Of a stretch of 24,634 bases of DNA, positions 1-12,195 are shown one piece after another (the first letter of the stretch is position 1; each line of letters opens with the position of its first letter). Source of the DNA: a virus. A program made the translations under genes and the position numbers. The stretch spans positions 1 to 24,634 of IMG/VR virus record IMGVR_UViG_3300044957_000184; one strand, written 5' to 3'. The notes beneath the pieces are model-generated. The model searched no databases. It saw nothing but the letters and a program-made list of their open reading frames with translations, and was not told where the DNA came from.

Positions 1-1
1 C

Positions 2-88
2 GACATGGTGGATCTCATGACCATCCTCGGCGGCATCCTCGGCCTCGGCGGCTTCCGGACCTATGAGCGTGTGAAGGGGAAGGCATGA
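2..88 (+). CDS. C-terminal end of a putative phage holin (partial)
   Basis: An open frame enters from the left edge and ends at TGA 86-88, overlapping the next start as ATGA. The visible 28 residues hold a Gly/Leu/Ile-rich hydrophobic stretch (TILGGILGLGGF) followed by RTYERVKGKA. A last membrane helix ending in an R-T-(Y/F/L)-E-K/R-(V/I)-K-G tail is what I associate with small three-helix phage holins (Holin_3TMs type). That makes a holin the best guess, but only the tail is visible, so topology and length cannot be checked. The frame has no stop between base 2 and 88. It may equally be another small membrane protein of the same operon. Confidence 0.5.
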   Translation, partial: DMVDLMTILGGILGLGGFRTYERVKGKA

Positions 89-291
89 CCCGCATCGAAA
101 TCGTCAACCAAGTGTGGCTCCCGGCCTACCTGCACGCCCTAGGCCGGGGGCACGACACCATCCGTGCCCGTGACATTGCCCGCACGGCGGTGGCGGACTA
201 CTACGAAGAGACCCGCAGGGCCGAGCAGGCTGAGAGGCAGCTCGCCCAACAACCGCCGAAGAGGCCAACCATTCCGGACCACCCCGCATGA
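85..291 (+). CDS. hypothetical protein, 68 aa
   Basis: It starts at ATG 85, overlapping the upstream stop, and ends at TGA 289-291, overlapping the next ATG (288). The purine run gtgaaggggaagg just upstream can act as a ribosome-binding site. The protein is soluble-looking: residues 1-45 read like an alpha-helical domain with alternating hydrophobic and charged residues, and the C-terminus is rich in Gln, Arg and Pro. I do not recognise a family. The stop-start overlaps on both sides and the G/C-ending codons support a real gene translated with its neighbours. Confidence 0.65.
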   Translation: MTRIEIVNQVWLPAYLHALGRGHDTIRARDIARTAVADYYEETRRAEQAERQLAQQPPKRPTIPDHPA

Positions 292-386
292 ACTTCTCCA
301 AGCAAGTAGCTGCTGTGGCGTTGGGGATCATCCTCACCTACATCGGCTTCTCCGCAATCATCACCGTCATCGGAGCTGCCCTGTGA
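288..386 (+). CDS. tiny single-pass membrane peptide, 32 aa
   Basis: This is a short ORF from ATG 288 to TGA 384-386. It overlaps the previous stop as ATGA and shares GTGA with the next start. Translation gives a short basic head (MNFSKQ) and then about 25 hydrophobic residues (VAAVALGIILTYIGFSAI and onward), with almost nothing after the membrane segment. Its two junctions and the absence of any other frame here support expression. A peptide this small next to a holin-like C-terminus could be a lysis accessory or a small inhibitor of a membrane process. No family is recognisable, so this is a positional guess. Confidence 0.6.
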   Translation: MNFSKQVAAVALGIILTYIGFSAIITVIGAAL

Positions 387-685
387 TCACACCCCAAACG
401 AACCACCCGTCCCGAGCCGTTCGCCTGTTCGCCGTCCTGACGGCCTTGCTGCTCGTGCTGTTGCTGCTGCCGTTCGGCCTAGCCATCGCGGCCGTGGTGA
501 TGACTTTCGAGTTCTCGCTGGCTTTCTTCGTGGTCGTCTTCGAGGCAGTGGGTCAGGCCTACAAAGGCCAGTCGTTCATCCATGCGCGCACTTACACCCT
601 CTCCGAGTGGGCGGCCTTCTACGGCAATACCATGCTGAACGCCGTGATAGGTCCTACCAAGGCCGTCTGCGTCGGGCTGGACTGA
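383..685 (+). CDS. hypothetical membrane protein, 100 aa (GTG start)
   Basis: The frame is open from far upstream, but the start that fits is GTG 383, overlapping the preceding stop (GTGA), with GGAG at 371-374 eight bases upstream. Using an earlier ATG would overlap two genes completely. The product has a polar head of about 12 residues, then a long hydrophobic region (about residues 13-55) rich in Leu/Val/Ala and wide enough for two membrane passes. A polar C-terminal half with several aromatic residues follows (YTLSEWAAFYGN). No family is recognised. Clustering with the 32-aa membrane peptide and the holin-like C-terminus suggests a membrane or lysis role, but this is inference. Confidence 0.65.
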   Translation: MITPQTNHPSRAVRLFAVLTALLLVLLLLPFGLAIAAVVMTFEFSLAFFVVVFEAVGQAYKGQSFIHARTYTLSEWAAFYGNTMLNAVIGPTKAVCVGLD

Positions 686-686
686 C

Positions 687-1472
687 ATGGCGTCGCGGCG
701 GCTCGCGCTGATCGACGCCGACATCTACGCCTACACAGCAGCGGCGACCGGGCAGGAGAGCTTTCGGTGGCCTGACGCGGAGGCGCCGGTGGCCGTTCAG
801 ACCTCAGACCTGGCGGACACCATCCGAGCAGCAGAGGAGTCCGTGCTCGACGCAGCCGCCAAGGTGAAGGCCAGCCGCACCATCGTGTGCCTCTCGTGCC
901 CCTCGGCCGAAGGGTTCCGGGTGCGGCTCCTGCCAACGTACAAGGCCGGCCGCGTGCCGAAGCCTCTGCAGCTCGCGGCGGTGAAGGACCACTACCGGTC
1001 CCGCTTCGAGTGCATGGAGCGGCCGCTGCTGGAGGCGGACGACCTGCTCGGCCTGCTCGCCACCTCGGCCCCCGAGCGCGGGTGGGAGACGGTGCTGGTG
1101 TCCGGCGACAAGGACCTGCGCCAGATTCCCGGCAACTTCTACGACCCGATCCGGGGGATTCTCGGGCGGGTGGATGAGGAGGCCGGGCTGCGCCTGCACG
1201 CCCTGCAGACCCTCACGGGCGACCCGGTGGACAACTACTCCGGCTGCCCCGGCATCGGCCCGGTGAAGGCGGCGAAGCTGCTCACCACACCGGACGGTGC
1301 GTGGTACCCACCGAATGCGTGGTGGCCGCTGGTGGTGTCGGCATACGAAGCGAAGGGCCTGACGGAGGACGATGCGCTCGTGCAGGCGCGCGTGGCGTTC
1401 ATCCTCCGGAAGGGCTACTACAACGACCAGACAGGAGAAGTGAAGCTATGGCAACCCCCATCGGAGAACTGA
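687..1472 (+). CDS. 5'-3' exonuclease (T7 gp6 / FEN-like)
   Basis: A 261-aa protein of the flap-endonuclease/5'-3' exonuclease superfamily, corresponding to T7 gene 6 exonuclease (about 300 aa). That enzyme degrades host DNA and removes primers in T7-like phages. The metal-binding acidic residues are visible in the family order: D10 and D12 near the N-terminus (LALIDADI), E116-x-D118-D119 (LLEADDLLG) and D141-x-D143 (SGDKDL). A helix-three-turn-helix DNA-binding loop follows around residues 186-198 (GCPGIGPVKAAKL). A lysine-containing arch segment (YKAGR) lies between the first two acidic groups. The start ATG 687 is one base after the upstream stop. The 3' end overlaps the DUF3310 gene by 25 nt, consistent with one operon. 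Confidence 0.93.
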   Translation: MASRRLALIDADIYAYTAAATGQESFRWPDAEAPVAVQTSDLADTIRAAEESVLDAAAKVKASRTIVCLSCPSAEGFRVRLLPTYKAGRVPKPLQLAAVKDHYRSRFECMERPLLEADDLLGLLATSAPERGWETVLVSGDKDLRQIPGNFYDPIRGILGRVDEEAGLRLHALQTLTGDPVDNYSGCPGIGPVKAAKLLTTPDGAWYPPNAWWPLVVSAYEAKGLTEDDALVQARVAFILRKGYYNDQTGEVKLWQPPSEN

Positions 1473-1762
1473 GGGCGAAGTGCTTGGACTCGTGCAATGA
1501 CTACGGCTGTGTCCGCACGAGTAACTGTTCGAAGTACCCCGAAACCCCGCCGCCCACGGCCACCCAAGTCGGCGGAGACCACTACCGCAAGAACGCCATC
1601 CAACCCATCGACTACATCCGCCAGAACAATCTCGGGTACTGCGAGGGCAACGTGGTGAAGTACATCACTCGGTGGCGCGACAAGGGATGGATCGACGACC
1701 TGCGCAAGGCCAAGCACTACATCGACTTCCTGATCGAGGAGGCGCAAGGCGATGCCCGGTAA
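1448..1762 (+). CDS. DUF3310 family protein with N-terminal Cys cluster
   Basis: A 104-aa protein. Its C-terminal two-thirds is a clear DUF3310 domain: VGGDHY at residues 41-46, then a QPIDYI segment, CEGNVVKYITRW beginning at C65, and a final KAKHYIDFLIEEA helix. DUF3310 proteins are common in phages and have no firmly assigned function; nucleotide-kinase labels in databases are weakly supported. Residues 8-27 carry four cysteines (C12, C16, C21, C27) after LRAKC. This resembles a diverged form of the Cys-rich LRAKCxxC...C...C-P module found in many phage proteins. The start ATG 1448 is chosen for the AGGAG around 1434-1438. An earlier in-frame ATG would lie deep inside the exonuclease gene. 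Confidence 0.88.
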   Translation: MATPIGELRAKCLDSCNDYGCVRTSNCSKYPETPPPTATQVGGDHYRKNAIQPIDYIRQNNLGYCEGNVVKYITRWRDKGWIDDLRKAKHYIDFLIEEAQGDAR

Positions 1763-1934
1763 CGCACCCGAGCTGCACAAGGACGACGACGGGACGTGGA
1801 CGGTGCGGCTGGACGAGGCCTCGCAAGCCGCCTTCGTCCGCTGGCTGTGCCTGACCTACGCTGTGCCCGAGAAGGCCGCTGCGGCATTGAAGGGGGCGCG
1901 GGGCCTAATTGTGCGTCCAGCTTCCAAGGCCTAA
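1752..1934 (+). CDS. hypothetical protein, 60 aa
   Basis: ATG 1752 lies inside the last codons of the DUF3310 gene (11-nt overlap) and the frame ends at TAA 1932-1934, just before the tRNA-like gene. The protein is small and soluble: an acidic head (HKDDDGTWTVRLDE) with a beta-hairpin look, then helices (SQAAFVRWLCLTY, PEKAAAALKGA). No family is recognised. The tight overlap and the codon bias matching its neighbours argue that it is translated. It is the last gene of the upstream non-structural cluster. Confidence 0.6.
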   Translation: MPGNAPELHKDDDGTWTVRLDEASQAAFVRWLCLTYAVPEKAAAALKGARGLIVRPASKA

Positions 1935-1951
1935 GAAGTTCTTCTGGACCC

Positions 1952-2020
1952 GTGGTGATCGTCTAACGTAAGGACCCCGGAGATAGTCCGGAAATGGGAG
2001 TTCGAGTCTCCCTCACCACT
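1952..2020 (+). tRNA. tRNA-like gene with a 5-nt anticodon loop
   Basis: The acceptor stem is a perfect 7-bp helix: GTGGTGA (1952-1958) with TCACCAC (2013-2019). The T arm is canonical: GGGAG (1996-2000), loop TTCGAGT, CTCCC (2008-2012). The D arm has GTCT (1961-1964) against GGAC (1972-1975) with one T-G wobble, but its loop carries G-T where tRNAs have the invariant GG. The anticodon arm is abnormal: CCGGA (1977-1981) pairs with TCCGG (1987-1991), leaving only GATAG as a 5-nt loop, two short of normal. Forcing a 7-nt loop leaves four pairs and puts G rather than U at position 33. The variable region is AAAT. Position 73 is T, followed by CCT, not CCA. Overall a tRNA-like fold is certain; amino-acid identity cannot be assigned. 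Confidence 0.75.
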
Positions 2021-2039
2021 CCTCCCTGCGGAGCACGCA

Positions 2040-2264
2040 ATGACAAGCGAAGAAGCACAGAGACTTCTCCACACCCACCTCGACTCTCGGGTGGTGGAAG
2101 CTCTGGAGGTACTCATCCCCAACCGTCTTCCGGGTGACCTGTCCTTCGGTGAGAGAGACATCAGCTCTCGCATCGGTGAACAGCGGGTCATCTCCCTCCT
2201 GCGCGGCGTCGTAGCCCGCAGGGAGCAGAAGGCGCGTGACGCCAACCCATCAACCACCAAGTGA
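2040..2264 (+). CDS. hypothetical protein, 74 aa
   Basis: It starts at ATG 2040 with GGAG at 2030-2033 six bases upstream, 19 nt after the tRNA-like gene. The product is predicted alpha-helical and soluble. It is highly charged, with an SFGERDISSRIGEQR segment in the middle and a basic tail (RREQKARDA). No family is recognised. It is the first of two small genes preceding the portal, where T7-like phages often carry small unknowns or minor virion components. Confidence that it is a gene is good because of the start signal and spacing; the function is unknown. Confidence 0.7.
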   Translation: MTSEEAQRLLHTHLDSRVVEALEVLIPNRLPGDLSFGERDISSRIGEQRVISLLRGVVARREQKARDANPSTTK

Positions 2265-2269
2265 CCTCC

Positions 2270-2515
2270 ATGTGTACCAAGTCCGTCTTCCGCTCCATCG
2301 GGCGCGTATTCGGGGTGGGTGGCAAGGGGCCGAACGCCCCCGAACCTACCGCTCTCCCCCGCCGCGCCGAAGCCCCCGCGCAGTCCCTCGCCAATCCCGA
2401 AGAGTACGGGATGAGCCGCGAGGAGATGAAGAGGCGCAACCGCTTCAAGCTCCGCCTCGACCAAGACTTCTCCGCCGCACCTGGCGGAACCGCACCCCCA
2501 ACTCTGGGGATGTAA
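2270..2515 (+). CDS. hypothetical protein, 81 aa; possible minor virion protein
   Basis: ATG 2270 gives MCTKSVFRSIGRVFG, a basic amphipathic head. A GTG at 2261, overlapping the previous stop, would add three residues; neither start has a strong ribosome-binding site, so the choice is uncertain. The middle is Pro/Ala-rich, a charged helix follows (SREEMKRRNRFKLRLD), and the tail is GGTAPPTLGM. The composition and its place immediately before the portal recall the small T7 gp6.7/gp7.3-type virion or tail-assembly proteins. No diagnostic motif is present, so that is a positional suggestion. It ends three bases before the portal start. Confidence 0.65.
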   Translation: MCTKSVFRSIGRVFGVGGKGPNAPEPTALPRRAEAPAQSLANPEEYGMSREEMKRRNRFKLRLDQDFSAAPGGTAPPTLGM

Positions 2516-2518
2516 CGC

Positions 2519-4069
2519 ATGAGCGCCCCCTCCGCAACGGAGGGGACTGCGAAGGCTCGCTACGCCCAGCTCGACCACGACCGCCTGCCGTACCTCCGGC
2601 GGGCGCGTGCGGCGGCGGCCCTCACCATCCCCTCGCTCATCGTTCCGGACGGTCACACCCCGACCTCCGAGCTACCCACCCCCTATCAGTCCTTCGGTGC
2701 CCGTGGCGTCAACAACCTCGCGGCCCGCATCGCCCTCACGCTGTTCCCTCCGGGCACCCCATTCCACAAGCTGACCCTTTCCGAGGAAGTGCGCGAGCAG
2801 GCCGGCGCGTCCGAAGGCGAAGTGTCCGCCGGTCTTGCCCGTGCGGAGCGCATCACCGTCGCCGACCTCGAAGCCTCCGCCTACCGTGGCGTGATGGTCG
2901 AGGCACTCAAGCACCTGCTCGTCGCCGGCCAGTTCGGCATGTTCTGGCCGTCGTCTGGTCGCCCCCGCCTGTTCCCCCTCACCCATTATGTCCTCCTGCG
3001 CAGCCCCTCGGGGCGCCTGCTGGAGGCCATCGTGCAGGAGAAGCTGGCGTGGGCAGAGCTGGAGGATGACGTGGTCGACCAACTGGTCGCCAACGGAGTC
3101 CCGCAGGCGGCCGAGTGTCGCGGCAAGGTAGACAAGACCGTCGACGTCTACACCCACATTCGCTGGACCGGTAAGCGTGTGATCTGGCACCAAGAGGTTG
3201 AGGGTGTCGTCATCGAAGGGTCCGTGGGCAACAAGCCCGCCGACCGTTCCCCGTGGATGTTCCCGCGCCTCATGGAGGAGGCGGGCAGCTCCTACAGCCG
3301 GGGCTACGTTGAGGACTACATCGGCGACCTCAAGTCTCTGGAGGCCCTGCGCGAGTCCATCGTCAACGGCGCCCTAGCGGCTTCGTGGATGCTGCTGCTG
3401 CTCAATCCGGGCAGCACGCTTACCATCGACGACATCCGCACCGCTGCCTCTGGCTCCGTGCTCTACGGGACCAAGGACGACCTCACGGCCGCCCAGCTCG
3501 ACAAGATTCCCGACCTCGCGTTCGTGGAGTCCGTGGCCCTCAAGATCGAAGAAGCCCTAGCTCACGCCTTCCTGCTCAACAGCGCCATCCAGCGCAACGG
3601 TGAGCGGGTGACGGCCGAGGAGATTCGGTACATGGCTGACGAGCTGGAGACCCAGCTTGGCGGGCTGTACTCGACCCTAGCCTACGACCTGCAGATTCCG
3701 GTCGTTCAGGCGAGCATGGGCCGTCTGGAGGCTGCGGGCCGACTGCCGAAGCTGCCGTCCGACCTCGCTGCCCCCACCATCGTCACGGGTGCCGAGGCTC
3801 TCGGACGAGGCAACGACATTACCCGCCTGCGCACCTTCGCGTCCTTGGTCCAAGAGACCTACGGTCCCGAAGTCCTTGTGCAGAGCACCAACCCCTCCGA
3901 GTTCATGTCGCGCCTTGCGGCTGGCCTCAACATCGTCGCGGACGGTCTCGTGAAGACCCAAGACGAGGTGGAAGAGGAACAAGACGCCGCTGCTGGTGCC
4001 GCCATGTTGGGCGCTGCAGCGGAGCAATCCATCACAGCCGGTGGTGCCCAAGCGGCCCCGCCGGCATAA
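2519..4069 (+). CDS. portal protein / head-tail connector (T7 gp8-like)
   Basis: A 516-aa protein close to the T7 gp8 length (536 aa). The portal forms the dodecameric ring at the head vertex through which DNA is packaged and ejected. The family signature near the N-terminus is present at residues 60-77 (GARGVNNLAARIALTLFP), corresponding to the GARGLNHLAS..LFP segment of T7 gp8. Later features include the SYSRGYVEDYIGDLKSLEAL region and the RNGERVTAEEIRYMADELE helix, both typical of the C-terminal stem and wing of T7-like portals. The Ala/Gly-rich tail is low complexity. The start ATG 2519 has GGGGAT a few bases upstream. It is followed by a small unknown, the scaffold and the capsid, the standard T7 order. 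Confidence 0.95.
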   Translation: MSAPSATEGTAKARYAQLDHDRLPYLRRARAAAALTIPSLIVPDGHTPTSELPTPYQSFGARGVNNLAARIALTLFPPGTPFHKLTLSEEVREQAGASEGEVSAGLARAERITVADLEASAYRGVMVEALKHLLVAGQFGMFWPSSGRPRLFPLTHYVLLRSPSGRLLEAIVQEKLAWAELEDDVVDQLVANGVPQAAECRGKVDKTVDVYTHIRWTGKRVIWHQEVEGVVIEGSVGNKPADRSPWMFPRLMEEAGSSYSRGYVEDYIGDLKSLEALRESIVNGALAASWMLLLLNPGSTLTIDDIRTAASGSVLYGTKDDLTAAQLDKIPDLAFVESVALKIEEALAHAFLLNSAIQRNGERVTAEEIRYMADELETQLGGLYSTLAYDLQIPVVQASMGRLEAAGRLPKLPSDLAAPTIVTGAEALGRGNDITRLRTFASLVQETYGPEVLVQSTNPSEFMSRLAAGLNIVADGLVKTQDEVEEEQDAAAGAAMLGAAAEQSITAGGAQAAPPA

Positions 4070-4081
4070 CGGAGATTCCCA

Positions 4082-4327
4082 GTGGTAAAGAAGACCGACC
4101 CGCAGTTCAGCACCGAGGATGCCGCCATTCCGGTTGCGTCCGACAAGCCGGCGCCCGCCATCCCCACGATGGGTGCGCTGGAAGACCGTCCGCCCAGCCA
4201 GAACGACCCCGAAGGCGCCCCGCCGGTTCCCCCGGTGGAGGACCCCTCCGCCCTTCCGCCCTACCCCGGCAACGCCGCGCAGGGCACCTTCGTGATGGCT
4301 GACGGCACCATTGTCCGCAACTGCTGA
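4082..4327 (+). CDS. hypothetical Pro-rich protein, 81 aa (GTG start)
   Basis: It starts at GTG 4082 with GGAG at 4071-4074, seven bases upstream, and ends two bases before the scaffold start. It is about one-fifth proline, with acidic and Ala-rich stretches and a short ordered-looking end (GTFVMADGTIVRNC) that closes on a cysteine. It looks largely disordered. It lies between portal and scaffold genes and is probably made with them, perhaps as an assembly factor or minor head component. No family is recognised. The clean ribosome-binding site and tight spacing support it as a real gene. Confidence 0.7.
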   Translation: MVKKTDPQFSTEDAAIPVASDKPAPAIPTMGALEDRPPSQNDPEGAPPVPPVEDPSALPPYPGNAAQGTFVMADGTIVRNC

Positions 4328-4329
4328 CC

Positions 4330-5100
4330 ATGAGCGATCCCACTCAGCAGCAGGCCACTGCCCCCGGCACGCCCGAGCACGACGCCGCAATGGTGGCAAA
4401 GTTCGTGGCCGCCGGGGGCCAGGCCCCGGACCAGCTGGCCCCGGCTTCCGTGCAGCAATCCACGCCGACCCCCGGCCTCCCCGACAAGTTCAAATCCGTC
4501 GAGGAGCTGGCCAAGGCCTACGCGGAGCTGGAGGCCAAGCTGGGCAAGAAGGACGACCCCGCCAGGCCTGAGCCGAAGGCCGAGGACGGCAAGCAGCCCC
4601 CGCCCACCGTGGACGTGGACAAGCTGTCCGACGAGGTGGCCGAGAACGGCAAGCTGTCCGAGGAGTCCATGAAGGCCCTGCAGGCCAAGGGCTACTCGCA
4701 GGCCGAGATCGACGCCTTCGTGGCCGGGCAGGTCGCGCTCGCCGAGCAGACCGTGCAGGACCTGTACGCTCTTGCTGGCGGCGAGGACAACTTCAAGGCC
4801 GTGCAGCAGTGGGCCGCCGCGTCCATGTCCGAGGCCGAGAAGGAGGTGTACCACTCTGCGCTGGAGAAGGACGAGGTGAGCGCCAAGCTGGCGATCCAGA
4901 ACCTCGTGCTTCGCTACCAGCAGGAGAACGGCGCCCTCCCGGCCCGCACCATCTCAGGCAGCCGGACCTCCACTGGCGGCGCGGTCGCCCCCTTCGCCTC
5001 CATCGCGGAGCAGAGTGCTGCCATCCGGGACCCCAGGTACGGAAAGGACCCCGCCTACCGCAAGCAGGTCGAGGCGCGGATCATGGCCAGCACCCTGTAG
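4330..5100 (+). CDS. capsid assembly scaffolding protein (T7 gp9-like)
   Basis: A 256-aa, highly charged protein. Its disordered Gln/Pro/Ala-rich head (residues 1-50) leads into KFKSVEELAKAYAELEAKLG, a motif seen in phage scaffolds, then a Pro/Lys/Asp-rich linker and a helical middle. The C-terminal 40 residues (AAIRDPRYGKDPAYRKQVEARI) match the conserved tail of T7-like capsid assembly proteins, which binds the coat protein. T7 gp9 is about 307 aa, so this is somewhat short. The location immediately before the capsid gene is as expected. The protein would act inside the procapsid and leave before or during DNA packaging. Confidence 0.9.
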   Translation: MSDPTQQQATAPGTPEHDAAMVAKFVAAGGQAPDQLAPASVQQSTPTPGLPDKFKSVEELAKAYAELEAKLGKKDDPARPEPKAEDGKQPPPTVDVDKLSDEVAENGKLSEESMKALQAKGYSQAEIDAFVAGQVALAEQTVQDLYALAGGEDNFKAVQQWAAASMSEAEKEVYHSALEKDEVSAKLAIQNLVLRYQQENGALPARTISGSRTSTGGAVAPFASIAEQSAAIRDPRYGKDPAYRKQVEARIMASTL

Positions 5101-5114
5101 CACAGAACGTCCCC

Positions 5115-5284
5115 GGCCCGTTGCAAGCCGGGCCTCCGAAATTGCAACCCGAGGGCAACCTCGGTGATCCGGGCGCCAACATGCGCGTGCGAGGCCTCCC
5201 TCGCCGGATCACCAAGGTGCCTTTGCGCACCCCGTAGCACTCCCTCCTTCTACGCGTGACACCCGTCACGGCCCGCTGCGGCGG
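5115..5284 (+). ncRNA. densely structured leader RNA of the capsid gene, with a three-way junction
   Basis: The 256-nt gap between scaffold and capsid holds no credible gene but a chain of hairpins. H1 is GGCCCG 5115-5120 with CGGGCC 5129-5134. H2 is CCGAGG 5149-5154 with CCTCGG 5159-5164, closing a GCAA tetraloop. H3 is a perfect 10-bp outer helix 5163-5172/5204-5213 that encloses two further hairpins, GCGC 5173-5176/5183-5186 and CGAGG 5190-5194/CCTCG 5199-5203, with only GTG unpaired: a compact three-way junction. H4 is GGTGC 5216-5220/GCACC 5227-5231. H5 is CGTGAC 5255-5260/GTCACG 5265-5270, and H6 is CCGC 5273-5276/GCGG 5281-5284. H2 and H3 share two bases. In T7 this gap holds the phi10 promoter and gene 10 leader. 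I infer a regulatory or stabilising leader, or processing signals. Confidence 0.6.
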
Positions 5285-5356
5285 ACAACCCTGAACGTAG
5301 ACCCGCGTGTGTGATGGCGAGGCTCCCTCCCTTCATTCACTCAAAGGCAGATCGCA

Positions 5357-6283
5357 ATGCCCAACGCAACCGTACTCAACTTCGGCCAGGTCAACTTGTC
5401 CGGCGCCACCGATGCCTTGTTCCTCAAGGTCTACGGCGGCGAGGTGATGGCCGCCTTCGAAGAGGCCAACCGCTTCATGGACCGCACGATGGTCCGCAAC
5501 ATCAACTCCGGTCGTTCCGCCGCGTTCCCCGCGACTTGGAAGCTGACCGCTGCCTACCACACGGCTGGTAACGAAATCCTCGGCCAGACCTCCGCGACGA
5601 ACGAGCGCGTCATCCTCATCGACGACCTGCTCGTGTCCTCGGCGTTCCTCGCTCGCATCGACGAGGCGAAGACCCACTACGAGGTTCGCTCGATCTACTC
5701 GAAGGAGTCGGGCCGCGCGCTCGCGTATGCCATGGACCGGAACCTGGCTCAGGTTCTCATCAACGCGGCCCGCTCGGCTGCGACCGTCACCGGCGGCTTC
5801 GGTGGTGGCCAGCTCACGAACGCGAACTTCCCGACCGATGGCGCCACTCTCGCCGCTGGCATCTTCAACGGTGCCCAGATTCTGGACGAGAAGGACATCC
5901 CGACGGATGACCGCTACGCCATGCTGCGCCCCGCGCAGTACTACCTGCTCGTGCAGACCACCAACGTCATCAACCGTGATTGGGGTGGCTCGGGCGTCTA
6001 CGCGGACGGCAAGGTGCTGAAGGTCGCCGGTGTGTCCATCGACAAGTCGAACCACATCCCGAGCACCAACATCGCCACGGGTCCCACCGCCTACCAAGGC
6101 AACTTCACGCCCACGACCGGCATCGTGTTCCACAAGTCGGCCGCCGGCACCGTGAAGCTGCTGGACCTCAAGGTGGAGATGGAGTACGAAATCCGCCGGC
6201 AGGGCACGCTGATCGTGGCGTCCTACGCTGCGGGTCACGGCATCCTGCGCCCCGAGTCCTCGGTGGAGCTGCGCGCCTCCTAA
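5357..6283 (+). CDS. major capsid protein (T7 gp10-like)
   Basis: A 308-aa HK97-fold coat protein of the T7-like podoviruses, shorter than T7 gp10A (345 aa). Family features in order: an N-terminal arm with EEANRFMDRTM, a P-domain region including YHTAGNEILG and NERVILIDDLL, and the spine-helix motif HYEVRSIYSKESGRALA starting at H107, which parallels HYDVRSEYTSQLGESLA of T7. The C-terminal end has VEMEYEIRRQGTLIVASYAAGHG. The start ATG 5357 has a weak AAAGG upstream. It follows the structured leader and is followed by a strong hairpin. I saw no convincing slippery site near the stop, so a T7-style 10B extension is not supported. Confidence 0.93.
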   Translation: MPNATVLNFGQVNLSGATDALFLKVYGGEVMAAFEEANRFMDRTMVRNINSGRSAAFPATWKLTAAYHTAGNEILGQTSATNERVILIDDLLVSSAFLARIDEAKTHYEVRSIYSKESGRALAYAMDRNLAQVLINAARSAATVTGGFGGGQLTNANFPTDGATLAAGIFNGAQILDEKDIPTDDRYAMLRPAQYYLLVQTTNVINRDWGGSGVYADGKVLKVAGVSIDKSNHIPSTNIATGPTAYQGNFTPTTGIVFHKSAAGTVKLLDLKVEMEYEIRRQGTLIVASYAAGHGILRPESSVELRAS

Positions 6284-6300
6284 TCGGAGACTACGCAGTA

Positions 6301-6326
6301 GGGGGAGGGGTATCCGACCCTCCCCC
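6301..6326 (+). terminator. strong hairpin after the capsid gene (terminator-like)
   Basis: GGGGGAGGG (6301-6309) pairs perfectly with CCCTCCCCC (6318-6326) around an 8-nt loop, 18 bases after the capsid stop. Its place matches the T7 late terminator T-phi. It lacks the following T run (ATTCCCC follows), so it may attenuate, protect the 3' end, or need another factor, rather than act as a classic intrinsic terminator. Confidence 0.6.
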
Positions 6327-6352
6327 ATTCCCCGACCCTCTGGAGCCACACC

Positions 6353-6613
6353 ATGTCCGCAGTCATCTACACCGGCCGCATTCAGGGCCAGACGTCCGCA
6401 GGTGCGGCGCTCGCCACGCAGAACCCCGTCACGCTCCACGCGGACGGGAACCTGCGCTGGACGGATGCCGCAGGCCGGCGCCGGGTCGCCGCAATCCGGG
6501 GCGACCTCGCCATCCTGATCCGCGACATCTTCCAAGGCGCGGGCGGCCTCCCGGCCACCGCAGGCAATCGCCTGATTCCGTTCGACGCTCCGCGCACGAG
6601 CACCGCGACCTAA
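6353..6613 (+). CDS. hypothetical protein, 86 aa
   Basis: It starts at ATG 6353 with CTGGAG about 8 bases upstream, after the capsid hairpin, and stops just before an intrinsic terminator. It is thus flanked by two transcription-stop-like elements. The sequence looks compact and beta-rich at first (SAVIYTGRIQGQ, ALATQNPVTLHADGNLRW) and then basic (GRRRVAAIRGDLAILIRDIF). No family is recognised. Between capsid and tail genes, candidates are a head decoration or head-completion protein, but nothing in the sequence decides this. Codon use matches the neighbours. Confidence 0.7.
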   Translation: MSAVIYTGRIQGQTSAGAALATQNPVTLHADGNLRWTDAAGRRRVAAIRGDLAILIRDIFQGAGGLPATAGNRLIPFDAPRTSTAT

Positions 6614-6640
6614 GTCGCACACACCATCTTCACCACCTCA

Positions 6641-6672
6641 AGGGGGCGAGAGCAATCTCGTCCCCTTTTTTT
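6641..6672 (+). terminator. intrinsic (rho-independent) terminator
   Basis: An 11-bp stem (A6641-A6651 against T6656-T6666, with one G-T pair) closes a GCAA tetraloop and runs directly into seven T residues (6666-6672). This is a textbook intrinsic terminator. It lies between the 86-aa gene and the tailspike, so it should lower expression of the tailspike and downstream tail genes relative to the capsid. Confidence 0.92.
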
Positions 6673-6680
6673 CGAGGACC
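6669..6680 (+). repeat. 12-bp flank shared by the two adhesin genes (copy 1)
   Basis: TTTTCGAGGACC lies at the end of the terminator, immediately before the tailspike start; it also contains the tailspike ribosome-binding site (GAGG). A near-identical TTTTCGAGCACC (11 of 12) stands in the same relation to a terminator hairpin and the tail fibre start at 19094-19105. Confidence 0.45.
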
Positions 6681-6685
6681 GCTGT

Positions 6686-8992
6686 ATGCCTCTCTACACC
6701 ACCTACGGCAACGGGGTCGCCACCGACTTCCCGGTACCCGGCGCCGGCACCGTGCTGTCCGTACTGGTCAACGGTTCCGGGACGTCGTTCACCCAGCCCG
6801 ACGGCCGCCACATGCTTCGTCTGGCGTCCCCGCCTCCGGCCGGGCAGACCGTGGTCATCGACTACGCTCTCACGGTTCCCCGGTTCCGGCTGGAGGAGTT
6901 CGGCGGAGGCACCTCGGCCACCGCCGCGCAGAACTCTGCCGCATTCTCGGCGATCTTCACGGCCACCGGCGGCGTCTGCGAAATCGCCCTCGGCCCCGGC
7001 GACTACCAAGTCAACGCAATCAACCTGACCACCACCGCCGCCGTTCGTCTGGCCATCACCGGCAGCGGGATGGGGATCACCCGGCTCATTCAGCAGGACA
7101 ACACGCGCGTCCTTCTCGTGAACCTGAACGACCCCGGCATCGACCCGACGCCCGGCTCTTGGGTCGTTCTCAACGCCTTCACGATGGTCGGGACGTGGCA
7201 GGCCAACCAATCGCTGGGCGGCGACAGCAACCGGCATGTGGACATCCGCCGCGTTGCACAGGTGGCGCTGAGTCGTGTCGAGTCCCAGTACTGCCGGATG
7301 ATGGCCCTGACGGCCCTGTATTGCGGGGACGTCAGCGTGAACGAATGCCGCGTTCTGTACTGCGCGCGGGACGCAATCAACCTGGCGTCCTGCTACCGCA
7401 CCTCGGTCCTCGGCAACCACATCCGCCACTGCAACGACGACGCCATCGCCGTCCACGTCACCGGCGCGCAGTTCAACCCCCCGCCAGAAGGGCACGTCAT
7501 CTCCGGCAACTACTGCGAAGACTCGTTCGGCATCAAGATGCTCGGGGCGCGCAACAGCACCGTGTCCAACAACGTGTGCCGCCGCGTGAAGGGATACGGC
7601 ATCTACCTGAACCACGAAGACCCGGAAGGCCGGTCGGACCACATCAACGTCAACATCTCCGACAACACCATTCTGGACGTGTTCCAGGCCGCCTGCTGGC
7701 CCGGCTTCGGCAACGTACAGCACGGCATCTTCGTCGGGAACCGCGCCACGTCCGCCACTCTGCGTGTGATCGGCGGCACCCCCACCATCGCGCGCCCGGA
7801 AGTCACGCAATACGCGAGCAACCAGGCGGCCTCCAAGAGCGTGGGTGCCCGTGGAATTCGCATCACCGGGAACATCATCGCCCAGACGCTGGCCAAGCCG
7901 ACGAACAACTACACCGAGTTTGGGTTCAACCGCTCGGCCCCCGCGCTGCAGCGGTCGTTCGCTTCCGGCGGATGGACCGACCTGACCTCCACCTGGGCGT
8001 CGTTCACCACCATCAATTCCGGAAACGCCATCGTTCTCACCGGATTCATTGACAGTGTGGACATCCTCAACAACAACATCGAGGGGTGGAGCCGGGGCAT
8101 CCTGCCGAGTGCATCGGCTGGCGTGTTCGAGGTGAACGTTCGCGGTAACCGCTTCTTCCGCATCGCTCAGTACGCCGTCGACTTGGAGTCCGGCGCCGTT
8201 CGTCGGGGCATGTTCCTGCTCGAAGGCAACTTCTTCGACCTCGACCCGTACCTGGAGAACTCGCAGCACAACGCGAACGGAACGTGGACGCTGACGACGA
8301 CCCAGTTCGGATCGGTGGCCAACACCTTCAACTGGGATGGGCCTTTCTTCTTCGTCGGAAACACGTTCCGCAATTGCCACCAGATCATCCGTGGCGGCGG
8401 CAACGGGCGCGTGGTGTATGCGGGCAACACCTACATCATGCAGCCCGGCTCGGGGTTCACCCACAACAACGGCGGGTTCAACGGCGCCACGAACCGAGGC
8501 ATCGGCTTCCCCAACGGCGCCTTAGATCCGACCGCTCGAATCCTGTGGGAGGACAGCGACCCCACTTCCGCAACGTATGGTCAGGTGACGCACGCCAGCG
8601 GCCGGGCCGTGGCCGGCTCTCCGGGCGGCAGCACCGTCCTCGCGGGGATCACCGGCGACCTGTGGCTCAACACCGACTCCACCCTTGGGGGCATCGTTGG
8701 CTACCGGCGCCTGACCACGGGAACCGGGAACGCCATCGGCACGGATTGGGCCATCGTCGGCACGCGGCACGGAACCTCGACGCAGAACGGCACCGGCGCG
8801 CAGACGGTGTTCACCATTCCGCACGGGCTGGGGACCACTCCCGCCGGTGCTCAGGTGAACGCGGGTTCGGCAGACGCTCGCGGTCCGTTCCACGTCTCGT
8901 GGGATGCGACGAACATCACCGTCACCTACGGGGCGGCCCCGGCCTCCGGCACCAACAACGTCGTTCTTCGCTGGACCGTCCACGGCAGCTAA
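6686..8992 (+). CDS. tailspike protein, right-handed beta-helix (putative depolymerase)
   Basis: A 768-aa adhesin. Residues 1-65 form a short N-terminal domain (TTYGNGVATDFPVP, VLSVLVNGSG) resembling the virion-attachment domain of the other tail fibre in this window. From about residue 70 to 620 there is a long succession of short beta-strand repeats with N-x-I/V motifs (HVISGNYCED, NSTVSNNVCRRV, HINVNISDNTI, VDILNNNIEGW, LEGNFFD), the signature of a pectate-lyase-type parallel beta-helix. The last 75 residues (HGLGTTPAGAQVNAGSADARG, then WDATNITVTY) are a C-terminal module common on phage spikes. Such proteins usually bind and often cleave host capsule or O-antigen; no catalytic residues can be named. 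GAGG 6674-6677 serves the ATG at 6686. Its place between capsid and gp11 is not T7-like. Confidence 0.85.
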   Translation: MPLYTTYGNGVATDFPVPGAGTVLSVLVNGSGTSFTQPDGRHMLRLASPPPAGQTVVIDYALTVPRFRLEEFGGGTSATAAQNSAAFSAIFTATGGVCEIALGPGDYQVNAINLTTTAAVRLAITGSGMGITRLIQQDNTRVLLVNLNDPGIDPTPGSWVVLNAFTMVGTWQANQSLGGDSNRHVDIRRVAQVALSRVESQYCRMMALTALYCGDVSVNECRVLYCARDAINLASCYRTSVLGNHIRHCNDDAIAVHVTGAQFNPPPEGHVISGNYCEDSFGIKMLGARNSTVSNNVCRRVKGYGIYLNHEDPEGRSDHINVNISDNTILDVFQAACWPGFGNVQHGIFVGNRATSATLRVIGGTPTIARPEVTQYASNQAASKSVGARGIRITGNIIAQTLAKPTNNYTEFGFNRSAPALQRSFASGGWTDLTSTWASFTTINSGNAIVLTGFIDSVDILNNNIEGWSRGILPSASAGVFEVNVRGNRFFRIAQYAVDLESGAVRRGMFLLEGNFFDLDPYLENSQHNANGTWTLTTTQFGSVANTFNWDGPFFFVGNTFRNCHQIIRGGGNGRVVYAGNTYIMQPGSGFTHNNGGFNGATNRGIGFPNGALDPTARILWEDSDPTSATYGQVTHASGRAVAGSPGGSTVLAGITGDLWLNTDSTLGGIVGYRRLTTGTGNAIGTDWAIVGTRHGTSTQNGTGAQTVFTIPHGLGTTPAGAQVNAGSADARGPFHVSWDATNITVTYGAAPASGTNNVVLRWTVHGS

Positions 8993-9004
8993 CTGAAACT
9001 CACC

Positions 9005-9619
9005 ATGTCTGAACTCCGCACCTCCGAACTCGACGCTGTGAACTGGCTCCTCTCCCTCATCGGGGAGGGGCCGGTGAACAACCTCGAAGACACCGGCCTC
9101 ATCGACGTGGCCTCCGCGCAGGACGATCTGCGGCAACTCTCCCGCCAGATTCAGATGAAGGGCTGGCACTTCAACACCGAGGACGAACAGGAGCTGCTGC
9201 TCGACTCGAACGGCGAGATTTCGGTTGGGGCGAACTGGCTCTCCGTGCGGGCGACCGCACGCGATGGCCGGGACGTTGTCGTCCGCAACGGGAAGCTGTA
9301 CGACCGCCGCAATCAGACCTCCGTGTTCGAGAAGGCGGTCGAGGTTCGGCTGGTCTACTTCCTCCCTTGGGACGACCTCCCCGAGTACGCCCGCAACTAC
9401 ATCAAGGCCCTCGCGGGCGAGAAGTTCCAGAAGTCGCGGGTGGGTTCCACGGCGCTGCACCAGCTCTCGCAAGAGGACGTGGCTCGGGCGCGGGTGGACT
9501 TCCTGCGCGAGGACGGCTCCCATCGTCAGGTGAACTTCCTCTACGACAACCCGAGCATGGTGACCAAGAGGGATCGCTCCTCCGAGTACGCCATCATCGG
9601 CAACCGCTACATCAGGTAA
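9005..9619 (+). CDS. tail tubular protein A (T7 gp11-like)
   Basis: A 204-aa protein matching T7 gp11 (196 aa), the dodecameric adaptor that joins the portal to the tail nozzle. Characteristic are the opening SELDAVNWLLSLIGEGPVNNLE, the helix DLRQLSRQIQMKGWHFNTE, and the later block VYFLPWDDLPEYARNYIKALAGEKFQ, followed by VARARVDFLREDG. It starts 12 nt after the tailspike stop without a clear ribosome-binding site and ends three bases before gp12, so the tail genes are probably co-translated. It acts in the virion after head filling. Confidence 0.93.
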   Translation: MSELRTSELDAVNWLLSLIGEGPVNNLEDTGLIDVASAQDDLRQLSRQIQMKGWHFNTEDEQELLLDSNGEISVGANWLSVRATARDGRDVVVRNGKLYDRRNQTSVFEKAVEVRLVYFLPWDDLPEYARNYIKALAGEKFQKSRVGSTALHQLSQEDVARARVDFLREDGSHRQVNFLYDNPSMVTKRDRSSEYAIIGNRYIR

Positions 9620-9622
9620 CCC

Positions 9623-11701
9623 ATGTCCCTCGTCACGCAGACCATCGCCAACCTCTACAACGGAGTGAGCCAGCAGCCCCCGGCGTCCCGCGACCTCTCG
9701 CAGTGCGAGGTGCAGGAGGATTGCTACTCGGCGCTGGCAGCGGGACTCACCAAGCGGCCCCCGGTGCACCACATCGCGGAGCTGATCAACGCCCCCGTGG
9801 CCAACATCTACTGCCACTTCATCGACCGGGGATCCGGGGATCGCTGGGTGGCTGTGGCCCACAACGGGACCATCCGGGTGTTCAACGCGGACACCGGCGC
9901 AGAGGCCACGGTCTCTGCCCCGGCTGGTTGGGGTTACATCAGCTCCGCCACCAGCCCGCGCGACGACATCCTGATGCTCACCGTGGCCGACTACACCTTC
10001 GTGGTGAACCGTCAGGTCACGGTGACCACGGATCCCGCCACCGTCCCTGGCTCCCTCTCGGCCACCGTGCAGCGGTTCTCGGACCTCCCGGCCGCCGGTA
10101 GCTCCTCTGGCCAGATTCGCCAGATTGCCGGCGACAACACCTCGTCCTTCGACGACTACTACGTCCGCTCGAACGGCACGGTGTGGGTGGAGCACGTCAA
10201 GCCGGGCATCACCTACAAGCTCAACCCGGCCACCATGCCCTACCGGCTGGTTCGCAACGGGGCCAACTCCTTCATCTTCACGCAGAACATCTGGGCCGAC
10301 CGGCTGGTGGGGGACGACGTCTCCAACCCCGACCCCTCGTTCGTGGGTCGCAAGATCAGCGAGCTGTTCTTCTACCGCAACCGCCTCGGGTTCCTCTCCG
10401 GCGACAACGTGGTCCTCACGCGCGCCGGCGATCCCTTCAACCTGTTCGCCAAGACCTCGACGCTGGTGTCCGATGAGGACCCCATCGACCTCACGGTGGC
10501 CCACCCGCGTGTGGCCATCCTGCGCCACGCGGTGTCCTTGCAGGGCGCCCTCGTGCTCTTCGGGGACCGGGTGCAGTTCGAGCTGGACGGCGGTGAGGTG
10601 CTCTCCCCGAAGACCGCCCGCATCGTCCAGACCACGGAGTTCGAGACCATCACGAGCACCCGCCCGGTTGGCTCGGGCGCCACCGTGTTCTTCGCGGTGC
10701 CCCGTGGTGGCTACATCGGGGTGCGGGAATACTACGTCGACCCCGACAGCTCCACGAACCAAGCTCCGGACATTACGGCCCAGGTTCCCGCCTACATGCC
10801 CGGCCCCGCCCGCGAGCTGATCGCCAGCCCCAACGAGGACCTGCTGTTGGTCCGCACCGGCAACGCGAACCTCGCCGGCTCCATGTACGTCTACAAGTTC
10901 TATTGGGACCCTTCGACCCAACGCAAGCTGCAGTCCTCGTGGTCCCGATTCAACATCGCCCTCGGGGCGGGGGACGCGGTGGAGGGTGCGGGCTTCTACG
11001 GCACCAAGCTGATGCTTGTGGTCCGTCGTGGCACCAAGCTGTTCTTGGAGTACATGGAGTTCCAAGAGTCGGTGTTCGATCTGGAGGACGATGCTGGCAA
11101 CGGCATCAAGATCCACCTAGACCGCCGCTGGACCACCACGGCAGGCGTCTACGACTCCGCGTCGCAGACCACCTCGTGGACCCTCCCGTACCCCGTGGAC
11201 ACCGGCCTCGACGTGGTCGTTGGGGTGTGCATCGACCCCAACTTCCCGGCCCTCGAAGGTGACAGCCCGGCGGTGACGATGGTCACGAGCACGCTCGCGC
11301 GGGTGCAGGGGGACTACTCCGGCGCCGGCATGGTGTTCGGCGTGCCCTACGAGTCCGTGTTCGAGTTCAGCGAGCAGTTCGTGCGCAACCAGCAGAACGC
11401 CGCCACGCTGGATGGGCGCCTGCAACTGCGCTACTTCTCGGTGCTCACCAACCTCACCGGGTTCCTCGAAGCTGAGGTGATCCGGCCGGGGCAGACCACG
11501 GGCCGTTCGGTGTTCACGGCGAAGTCGCTGGGCAACTACACGCTCGGCAGCTCTAGCCTCGTGCGAGACCGGTTCCGGTTCCCGGTGTTCGGCAACAGCC
11601 GCACGGCCCGCATCCGGCTCAAGTCCAAGTCCTACCTCCCCTTCGCGGTGCAGTCGGCCGAGTGGGAGGGCTACTACGTTCCACGATCCCGGAGGATGTG
11701 A
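9623..11701 (+). CDS. tail tubular protein B / nozzle (T7 gp12-like)
   Basis: A 692-aa protein; T7 gp12 is 794 aa. The N-terminal family motif is clear: NLYNGVSQQPPASRDLSQCE, then AAGLTKRPP. The central diagnostic segment FFYRNRLGFLSGDNVVLTRA and the following DPFNLF are present, as is the FYWDPSTQRKLQSSWSRF strand region typical of these beta-propeller-bearing nozzles. Six copies would form the nozzle through which DNA passes. The stop TGA 11699-11701 overlaps the next start. The shorter length suggests a reduced fortress or platform domain compared with T7. Confidence 0.93.
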   Translation: MSLVTQTIANLYNGVSQQPPASRDLSQCEVQEDCYSALAAGLTKRPPVHHIAELINAPVANIYCHFIDRGSGDRWVAVAHNGTIRVFNADTGAEATVSAPAGWGYISSATSPRDDILMLTVADYTFVVNRQVTVTTDPATVPGSLSATVQRFSDLPAAGSSSGQIRQIAGDNTSSFDDYYVRSNGTVWVEHVKPGITYKLNPATMPYRLVRNGANSFIFTQNIWADRLVGDDVSNPDPSFVGRKISELFFYRNRLGFLSGDNVVLTRAGDPFNLFAKTSTLVSDEDPIDLTVAHPRVAILRHAVSLQGALVLFGDRVQFELDGGEVLSPKTARIVQTTEFETITSTRPVGSGATVFFAVPRGGYIGVREYYVDPDSSTNQAPDITAQVPAYMPGPARELIASPNEDLLLVRTGNANLAGSMYVYKFYWDPSTQRKLQSSWSRFNIALGAGDAVEGAGFYGTKLMLVVRRGTKLFLEYMEFQESVFDLEDDAGNGIKIHLDRRWTTTAGVYDSASQTTSWTLPYPVDTGLDVVVGVCIDPNFPALEGDSPAVTMVTSTLARVQGDYSGAGMVFGVPYESVFEFSEQFVRNQQNAATLDGRLQLRYFSVLTNLTGFLEAEVIRPGQTTGRSVFTAKSLGNYTLGSSSLVRDRFRFPVFGNSRTARIRLKSKSYLPFAVQSAEWEGYYVPRSRRM

Positions 11702-12195
11702 TGCGTGCTGTCGATCCGTTTCAGCTCTCCATGACCCGCCTCGGCGAGTTCGGGGAGAACATGCGCGCCGCAGACGTCAACGAGTGCAAGGCGGCCGGCT
11801 GGAGAGACCCTCTGGCCGCCGTCCTCGAAGCTCTGCACTGGAGCGGCTCGCGTTCGTGGGCACTGGTGGACGGGACCGGGCGGGTTTGGGTACTGGCGGG
11901 GCTGGCCGAGTCCTCGGACGTGGAGAATGACATCCTGCTCCAGCCGTGGTTCGTGGCCCGTGAAGGGCTGCGGCCGCGAGACCTGGTGCGCGCCGGCAAG
12001 GTGATCTACTCCCTGATGGAGTGCCACCGCCACAACAGCGCCGGCGAGCGCCGGGTCTTCTGGAACACGGTGTGGAACAAGGCCGTCCAGTCCCACACCT
12101 TCATAGAGCACTTCGGCTTCCGTCTCGACAGGCGGCCGAAGTCCATCCTCCGGCACCCAAAAACCGGAGAGTTTTTCTACCCATTCGAGTCCTGA
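11701..12195 (+). CDS. internal virion protein A (T7 gp13-like)
   Basis: A 164-aa protein. The frame is open further upstream inside gp12, but ATG 11701 is chosen because it overlaps the gp12 stop (TGATG) and has GGAGG at 11691-11695. The protein opens with a helix and then WALVDGTGRVWVLAGLAE and ends with FIEHFGFRLDRR, a layout seen in gp13-like phage proteins that resemble GNAT acetyltransferases. T7 gp13 is 138 aa and needed for correct assembly of the internal core. Position directly between gp12 and the gp14 homologue supports the call. Whether it is enzymatically active cannot be told. Confidence 0.8.
   Translation: MRAVDPFQLSMTRLGEFGENMRAADVNECKAAGWRDPLAAVLEALHWSGSRSWALVDGTGRVWVLAGLAESSDVENDILLQPWFVAREGLRPRDLVRAGKVIYSLMECHRHNSAGERRVFWNTVWNKAVQSHTFIEHFGFRLDRRPKSILRHPKTGEFFYPFES

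Follow-up and report, generated by a model that had tools for sequence, protein, structure and literature searches.

What does a phage of the T7 type keep in the long non-coding gap between its scaffold gene and its capsid gene, and do the hairpins in this gap belong to the capsid gene as a structured RNA leader? The locus in question lies in IMG/VR record IMGVR_UViG_3300044957_000184, of which 24,634 nt have been analysed as a whole (hereafter the window); judged from its sequence, the window is part of a T7-like podovirus, and its genes comprise a portal-type head-tail adaptor (phrog_449), a scaffold, a capsid, and tail and internal virion proteins. The first-pass annotation had described positions 5115-5284 as a structured stretch in the one long gap of the structural region; a structured stretch is indeed found there, but the non-coding gap itself is longer, comprising 256 nt (Table 1).

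An identical gap occurs in two IMG/VR contigs (one base different over 1954 aligned), and these two therefore contribute no covariation. Among public phages, capsid protein identity to the window does not exceed 55%, and blastn has returned no match in the gap. Sigma-70 promoters have not been found in the gap, and neither has an intrinsic terminator, i.e. a GC stem followed by a T-run (scan of positions 1-12000). Outside the gap, a terminator-like site with a 12-bp stem and a T-run is located on the + strand at 6640-6667, after a small ORF downstream of the capsid gene.

Table 1. Positions of the genes, hairpins and conserved element in and around the capsid leader of the window.
Feature	Position	Strand	Description	Basis
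Scaffolding (head assembly) protein gene	4330..5100	+		phrog_1052, E 2.8e-47
Non-coding leader	5101..5356	+	Scaffold-capsid gap, 256 nt	Sequence and gene calls
H2	5149-5164	+	CCGAGG-GCAA-CCTCGG, GNRA loop	Sequence
Three-way junction	5163..5213	+	10-bp helix around hairpins 5173-5186 and 5190-5203	Sequence, fold, shuffles
Putative tRNA-like reading of the junction	5166..5214	+	Acceptor-like GATCCGG/CCGGATC, 7 bp, then A and CCA (5211-5214); no T-loop	Read from the sequence; some relatives have tRNAs or T arms at this place
H4 (candidate)	5216..5231	+	GGTGC-CTTTGC-GCACC	Sequence
H5	5255..5270	+	CGTGAC-ACCC-GTCACG; adjoins the core, base 5270 also in P1	MFE fold
Core element	5270..5290	+	GG-C-[CCGC UGCG GCGG]-ACAA-CC	Covariation, pairing test, model R1
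Core, P1	5270-5271/5289-5290	+	Outer helix	
Core, P2	5273-5276/5281-5284	+	Inner helix	
Core, YNMG loop	5277-5280	+		
Core, AYAA bulge	5285-5288	+		
H6	5273..5284	+	P2 hairpin, UGCG loop	P2 covariation, 47 sequences
Major capsid protein gene	5357..6283	+		phrog_267, E 3.3e-73

Hairpins and folding of the leader

Helices H2, H4, H5 and H6 and the three-way junction have all been read from the sequence at the positions originally annotated; H2 and the 10-bp helix, although each is present, share bases 5163-5164, and so cannot both form fully. The gap has an MFE of -105.6 kcal/mol (z -3.06) and the originally noted stretch 5115-5284 an MFE of -82.6 kcal/mol (z -3.76), with one of 200 shuffles as stable in either case. 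Three tiles that belong to tail or internal virion protein genes fold more strongly relative to their shuffles, however, leaving tile 5101-5270 in fourth place among the 288 tiles of the window, and energy alone would consequently not single out the region. Structure on the opposite strand of the gap has been rejected (z -1.55, 17 of 200 shuffles as stable).

The most elaborate of these structures is the three-way junction, in which a perfect 10-bp helix, GGTGATCCGG/CCGGATCACC at 5163-5172/5204-5213, encloses the hairpins GCGC-CAACAT-GCGC and CGAGG-CCTC-CCTCG, separated by three free bases (5187-5189). The + strand of the window (24.6 kb) has a single junction of this type, and none has arisen in 4000 shuffles of the gap or 40 shuffles of the whole window, which bears out the expectation that such a fold is hard to get by chance.

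Homologues of the junction have not been found, either by blastn of the gap against the fetched loci or by a scan of IMG/VR for its exact stems. The former has returned the gap's own copies, matches to positions 5264-5301, and three weak matches in two contigs that had been brought in by the stem scan; the latter has returned the two contigs of the phage itself and seven others, in whose available stretch no capsid relative is detected by tblastn. As none of the related leaders has been found to contain the junction, covariation is unable to test it, and among the leaders compared the larger three-way junction appears to be found only in this phage.

The conserved core element and its tie to the capsid gene

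The comparison of related leaders is based on 11 aligned capsid proteins and on related IMG/VR loci, fetched as the best 80 of at least 597 relatives. The part of the leader that has counterparts in relatives is the stretch 5264-5301, and best of all 5270-5293, which corresponds to H6 together with the ACAACCCTG after it. In alignment A3, made of 47 distinct 36-nt sequences, the element takes the form RRC-[stem]-YNMG loop-[stem']-AYAAYY, with an inner stem of 4 bp; the loop is YNMG in 46 of the 47 rows (TGCG, TGAG, CGAG, TACG or CACG), the single exception being CGTG at locus L016.

The two outer and four inner pairs of the element are paired in 95.0% of the 282 cells of this alignment, and all six pairs show changes on both sides. 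Pairing of P2 in 100% of the rows is partly a product of selection, because the rows were picked by a score that partly rewards pairing and are not a neutral sample. The covariation score of the 47 rows is 0.856, whereas 500 shuffles give 0.232 (sd 0.025) and slid pairings give 0.09-0.22; two of the five covariation measures do not rise above the shuffles (pairs with double changes, 6 versus 5.1; further pair types, 16 versus 15.7). RNAalifold alone predicts the four inner pairs. In the 96 distinct matches of model R1, which was built from the 47 sequences, the score is 0.801 versus 0.200 in shuffles, with an alignment that is fitted to the model and leans to it; G-U pairs occupy 11 of 573 cells in this larger alignment, and these few pairs, together with the YNMG loops, are a pointer to RNA. 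The window, itself among the 47 sequences, matches R1 with 35.2 bits (E 2.5e-8).

Compensatory changes in homologous gaps, proposed from the outset as the test of the leader, are thus strongly present for H6 and the bases around it, but not for the three-way junction. The existence of the core element as a conserved RNA structure is well supported. Its folding energy is ordinary, with a mean z of +0.2 over 59 leaders, and the sequence upstream of it has a mean z of -1.77, compared with -1.41 in the capsid coding sequence; the MFE z-score has been rejected as a marker of such leaders, those of relatives being barely more stable than coding DNA and the core close to zero.

The pairing of the element is also seen where it has not been demanded. 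IMG/VR has been scanned with the pattern GGCCNNNTGMGNNNGACAACC, in which the loop and the base are fixed, three stem positions are free and pairing is not required, yielding at least 119 stretches, of which 80 loci have been kept; these 80 matches represent 33 distinct 21-mers, many of them related, and are not 80 independent cases. The three free positions are all paired in 70 of the 80 loci, whereas 2000 shuffles average 8.4 such loci and never exceed 18; counted over distinct stem halves, 22 of 31 are paired, where 2.3 are expected and the shuffles reach at most 9. By tblastn, a capsid gene follows downstream in 69 of the 70 pairing loci (the contig of the 70th ends 47 nt on) and in none of the 10 loci that do not pair fully. 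Pairing and the link to the capsid gene go together, neither having been demanded by the scan.

The distance to the gene is also constrained: in 67 of these 69 loci the pattern is followed by the extrapolated capsid start at a distance of 53-97 nt, and in the remaining two (L143 and L146) at 580-592 nt; locus L082, on the same contig as L143, has its element 768 nt before the first matched capsid residue. This tie to the capsid start makes a free phage RNA, one of the functions originally suggested, less likely. The broader suggestion of a structured RNA leader belonging to the capsid gene holds for H6 and the core, through covariation and the tie to the gene; for the junction, no counterpart has been found in the searches above.

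As for a fortuitous structure in GC-rich DNA, it could be argued from the GC content of the window (66%), from the three coding tiles that fold more strongly against their shuffles and from the lack of junction homologues in our searches; for the core (5270-5290), however, it is excluded by the pairing test and the capsid association, and the absence of the junction from 4000 shuffles also speaks against it, though the junction, H4 and H5 may still be products of chance. Taken for the leader as a whole, this explanation is highly improbable.

Distribution of the element and the variable block upstream of it

Model R1 finds matches at E ≤ 0.1 in 77 of 97 sources; the loci from which it was built match by construction, and 18 of the 77 remain once model rows and their copies are set aside, a count from which we have excluded one more locus (L039) that lies outside the model rows solely through a match shifted by one base. 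The match starts 74-174 nt before the capsid gene in 76 of the 77, the exception being L082. In 35 whole records, R1 matches at E ≤ 1 in 30 and at E ≤ 0.01 in 25, in all 25 of them in the capsid leader, and the second-best matches are in no record better than E 0.017.

Carriers of the element include Bordetella phage BB8, Roseobacter phage CRP-114, Rhizobium phage TRX32-1, RHEph01, RHEph21, Pasto, Prochlorococcus phage P-SCSP2, Pelagibacter phage HTVC025P, the uncultured phage MedDCM-OCT-S42-C7, HTVC011P and Syn5, where the element lies about 95 nt before the capsid gene. In P-SSP7 the match is weak (E 0.027, 104 nt before the capsid gene) and its AYAAY imperfect; the same phage has a glutamine-II riboswitch between psbA and the capsid gene (L265 1023-1076, + strand; 48.1 bits, E 6.4e-11). 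By these matches, the element is common to the capsid leaders of many T7-like phages of very different bacteria.

In other T7-like phages the model does not detect it. Five of the 35 records (T7, Lo5R7ANS, ctgrD200, G002 and G015) have no R1 match at E ≤ 1, and five more (G011, G017, LUZ100, YIMV22061 and ProddE) have matches of E 0.019-0.77 that we have not counted and that, in G011, G017 and LUZ100, are located outside the capsid leader. Among 12 further records, seven are without a match (T7, phiKMV, LUZ19, S-CBP4, ICP3, MedDCM-OCT-S04-C24 and gh-1). The one match in 3MF5 is weak and distant from the capsid gene. In SP6, the best match (E 0.0018) is located on the minus strand inside the terminase gene and has been taken as chance; single weak E-values of so short a model are accordingly not proof of the element.

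A strict descriptor with free helix length finds the element in 48 of 92 distinct leaders and in none of 460 shuffles or 92 capsid-coding stretches; it misses the other 44 leaders, many of which are found by R1. A long form occurs in LUZ100, Lo5R7ANS, Pasto and several contigs, with the base and the YNMG tip kept and the helix between them extended, so that the part between base and tip grows from 12 nt to 32-35 nt, or to 54 nt in L067 and L078. Four of the long forms (L010, L077, L079 and L080) have a common inner CCAAC on the 5' side, which suggests a subfamily with extra structure.

Upstream of the core, the leaders differ. Of 132 loci, near copies among them, 10 have a tRNA or a perfect T arm within 320 nt upstream, compared with two in 916,711 control bases, and ARAGORN calls tRNAs in six of the 132. 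Some leaders have a bulged hairpin 20-60 nt upstream, a descriptor score of at least 20 being reached in 24% of 58 leaders versus 5% of capsid-coding stretches, and in others terminator-like hairpins can be seen by eye. A single, universal bulged hairpin has been rejected, as it is confined to some lineages and the window has none by the descriptor. In Syn5, the sequence just upstream of the core resembles mascRNA (E 0.011, 23.4 bits, below the Rfam cut-off of 42.5). The upstream block takes several forms and is not one conserved element.

Mapped transcript ends are available for LUZ100, for which the published report gives 22 termination sites (five of them predicted as intrinsic) and describes a local phage promoter that serves the capsid gene (PMC10134795). 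The annotated features are 100 bases long and have been taken to run from -60 to +40, as inferred from T16, which has its T-run at position 60. Placed in this way, the 3' end of T14 would fall two bases before the tRNA-Asn, and that of T15, which has no T-run, inside the bulged hairpin just upstream of the element; we infer that these two annotated terminators (L005, OP329100.1 20769-20868 and 20970-21069) are RNA processing ends rather than transcription stops.

Could the element, then, be itself a processing site, where RNase III, E or P cuts in or beside it or the preceding hairpins and thereby makes the end of the capsid mRNA? The enrichment of T arms and tRNAs upstream, the mascRNA likeness in Syn5 and the two LUZ100 ends at their inferred positions, of which the one inside the hairpin hints at RNase III, are consistent with such a role, and in the window the junction would be the cut module, perhaps a tRNA-like fold without an anticodon arm: its topology is of this kind, with arms of 4 bp and 5 bp, the second joined directly to the acceptor strand, and the 7-bp GATCCGG/CCGGATC is followed by A-CCA, though the ACC can also pair with GGT. 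A T arm with a TTCRANN loop is absent from the junction, however, the loop being CCTC, of 4 bases; ARAGORN finds no tRNA at the junction, and Rfam none in the window at its cut-off. A descriptor of tRNA-like junctions fits four of 112 leaders (among which the junction of the window has the top score), compared with 22 of 996 coding tiles and 15 of 1120 shuffles; as it is not clearly enriched in leaders, the junction has been rejected as member of a tRNA-like family. We consider the processing-site explanation unlikely; the junction may be this lineage's variant of an upstream cutting block, or a product of chance.

A second tRNA-like stretch is located in the window at 1952-2022 (+ strand), where ARAGORN calls a tRNA-Tyr with anticodon ata, below the Rfam tRNA cut-off; its acceptor (GTGGTGA/TCACCAC) is 7 bp long and its T arm perfect, it lies just before an ATG at 2040, and it is perhaps a tRNA-like processing signal. 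Upstream of it, on the same strand, two reading frames (687-1472 and 1301-1762) have a 5'-3' exonuclease domain (PF02739) and a DUF3310 domain.

Proposed role and comparison with known systems

The core element probably serves to control the production of the shell protein. The reading that we put forward, at a little short of an even chance, is that it is a cis-acting RNA in the leader of the capsid mRNA, located after a variable cut or stop, which sets the stability and/or the translation of this mRNA. Upstream, a changeable block would cut or end the incoming transcript; this block can be a tRNA, a hairpin of the bulged or terminator-like type or, as in this phage, the junction. The core begins 74-174 nt upstream of the capsid start codon, and after the cut it would be located close to the 5' end of the mature mRNA. 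A specific partner, encoded by the phage or taken from the conserved factors of the host (for instance a ribonuclease or a ribosomal protein), would then read the core in the RNA, i.e. its short outer helix, its asymmetric internal loop (one C opposite AYAA) and its inner helix with a YNMG tetraloop, and the core with its partner would raise the stability and/or translation of the mRNA. The cis action, the partner, the upstream cut and the effect of the element are parts of the model that we infer. A free stem sequence combined with a fixed internal loop and a fixed loop type fits recognition as RNA by a partner; a role as stabiliser alone would not explain the fixed internal loop.

A translational operator, as in MS2, would share this recognition: the scaffold, the capsid or another phage protein would bind the hairpin and feed back on capsid synthesis. 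A fixed internal loop and tetraloop type on a free stem would be typical of a protein site, there is a single good match per genome, before the capsid gene, and the very different hosts make a phage-coded partner plausible. The spacing of 53-97 nt to the extrapolated start keeps the element away from the ribosome site, however, and T7 has no match despite its homologous scaffold and capsid genes; this alternative is on the unlikely side.

A DNA signal or transcription stop, i.e. a promoter of the phage RNA polymerase or a terminator, might be expected from the promoter annotated just before the capsid gene in some T7-like phages (phi10 of T7; 3MF5). The stem sequences of the element, however, vary freely yet in pairs, R1 has one good match per genome, and there is no T-run. 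In LUZ100, about 550 nt separate the mapped promoter phi7 from the capsid gene downstream, and none of the annotated 3' ends falls at the element; in Syn5, what we take to be the promoter consensus occurs, with up to two mismatches, only at 4929 and 44797, i.e. elsewhere. The mapped features of LUZ100 and these promoter positions in Syn5 favour a cis-acting mRNA signal over a promoter or terminator, and we give the latter a very low probability. The 400 nt upstream of the capsid gene have been examined in seven phages for repeated 20-mers, the best of which recur about as much as the top 1-5% of random 20-mers; a search for phage promoters by repeats has given recurrent families in LUZ100 and RHEph01, none of them adjoining the core.

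Separately, LUZ100 and RHEph01 (L118-L122) have many TATCCACCAGYGMAT-like sites; two of those in LUZ100 are located, by eye, between sigma-70-like hexamers, and others where genes end, the capsid gene among them. Such TATCCACCAGYGMAT-like sites could be repressor operators or "stoperator" sites in temperate T7-like phages.

More broadly, the cis-acting mRNA signal that we favour would belong to a new RNA family of T7-like phages, read by a partner at C/AYAA and setting capsid output post-transcriptionally, with exchangeable tRNA, tRNA-like or junction modules upstream that free the capsid mRNA by cutting, where T7 uses a dedicated local promoter; this extended proposal is possible but rather doubtful. 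The hosts of the phages in the proposed family would be cyanobacteria, SAR11, roseobacters, rhizobia, Bordetella and Pseudomonas.

Capsid protein is needed in large excess over the other late proteins. The element, kept before the capsid gene in phages of distant hosts but not detected in T7 or in several related phages, makes it testable how phages without a promoter at the capsid gene reach the right excess; it also provides a compact RNA part, and could serve as a marker when metagenomic phages are annotated.

Rfam 15 has no family at gathering score in the window, and in 12 other loci only a tRNA (in L034); searches by E-value give chance-level matches for positions 5101-5380 of the window and for the BB8 leader, and nothing at the core in the leaders of Syn5 and P-SSP7. 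Among the literature matches listed, judged by title and the start of the abstract and with subscription journals and preprints outside the scope, none describes the element. In the passages considered, the LUZ100 report (PMC10134795) does not mention it, and the word "hairpin" is absent from the main text.

Of the known systems nearest to it, the leader of T7 gene 10 belongs to the same gene in the same phage family, controls capsid expression locally and has a 5' stem-loop; T7, however, has no R1 match at E ≤ 1 in its whole genome (NC_001604), and phi10 is annotated 63 nt before gene 10. The mascRNA (RF01684), a tRNA-like RNA, is eukaryotic; it is matched below threshold by the Syn5 leader and, up to E 5, not at all by the leader of the window. 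The coat-protein operator of MS2 is likewise a small hairpin with a bulge and a fixed loop that acts on a phage gene, but MS2 is an RNA phage, and its operator overlaps the start of another gene. In the capsid operon of LUZ100 (PMC10134795), a mapped phage promoter, 3' ends and a tRNA-Asn precede the capsid gene, and they are followed by the long form of the element and then by the gene. Finally, the tip loop found in 46 of the 47 rows is that of the UNCG/YNMG tetraloop hairpins, a generic motif, to which the element adds its C/AYAA base and its link to the capsid gene.
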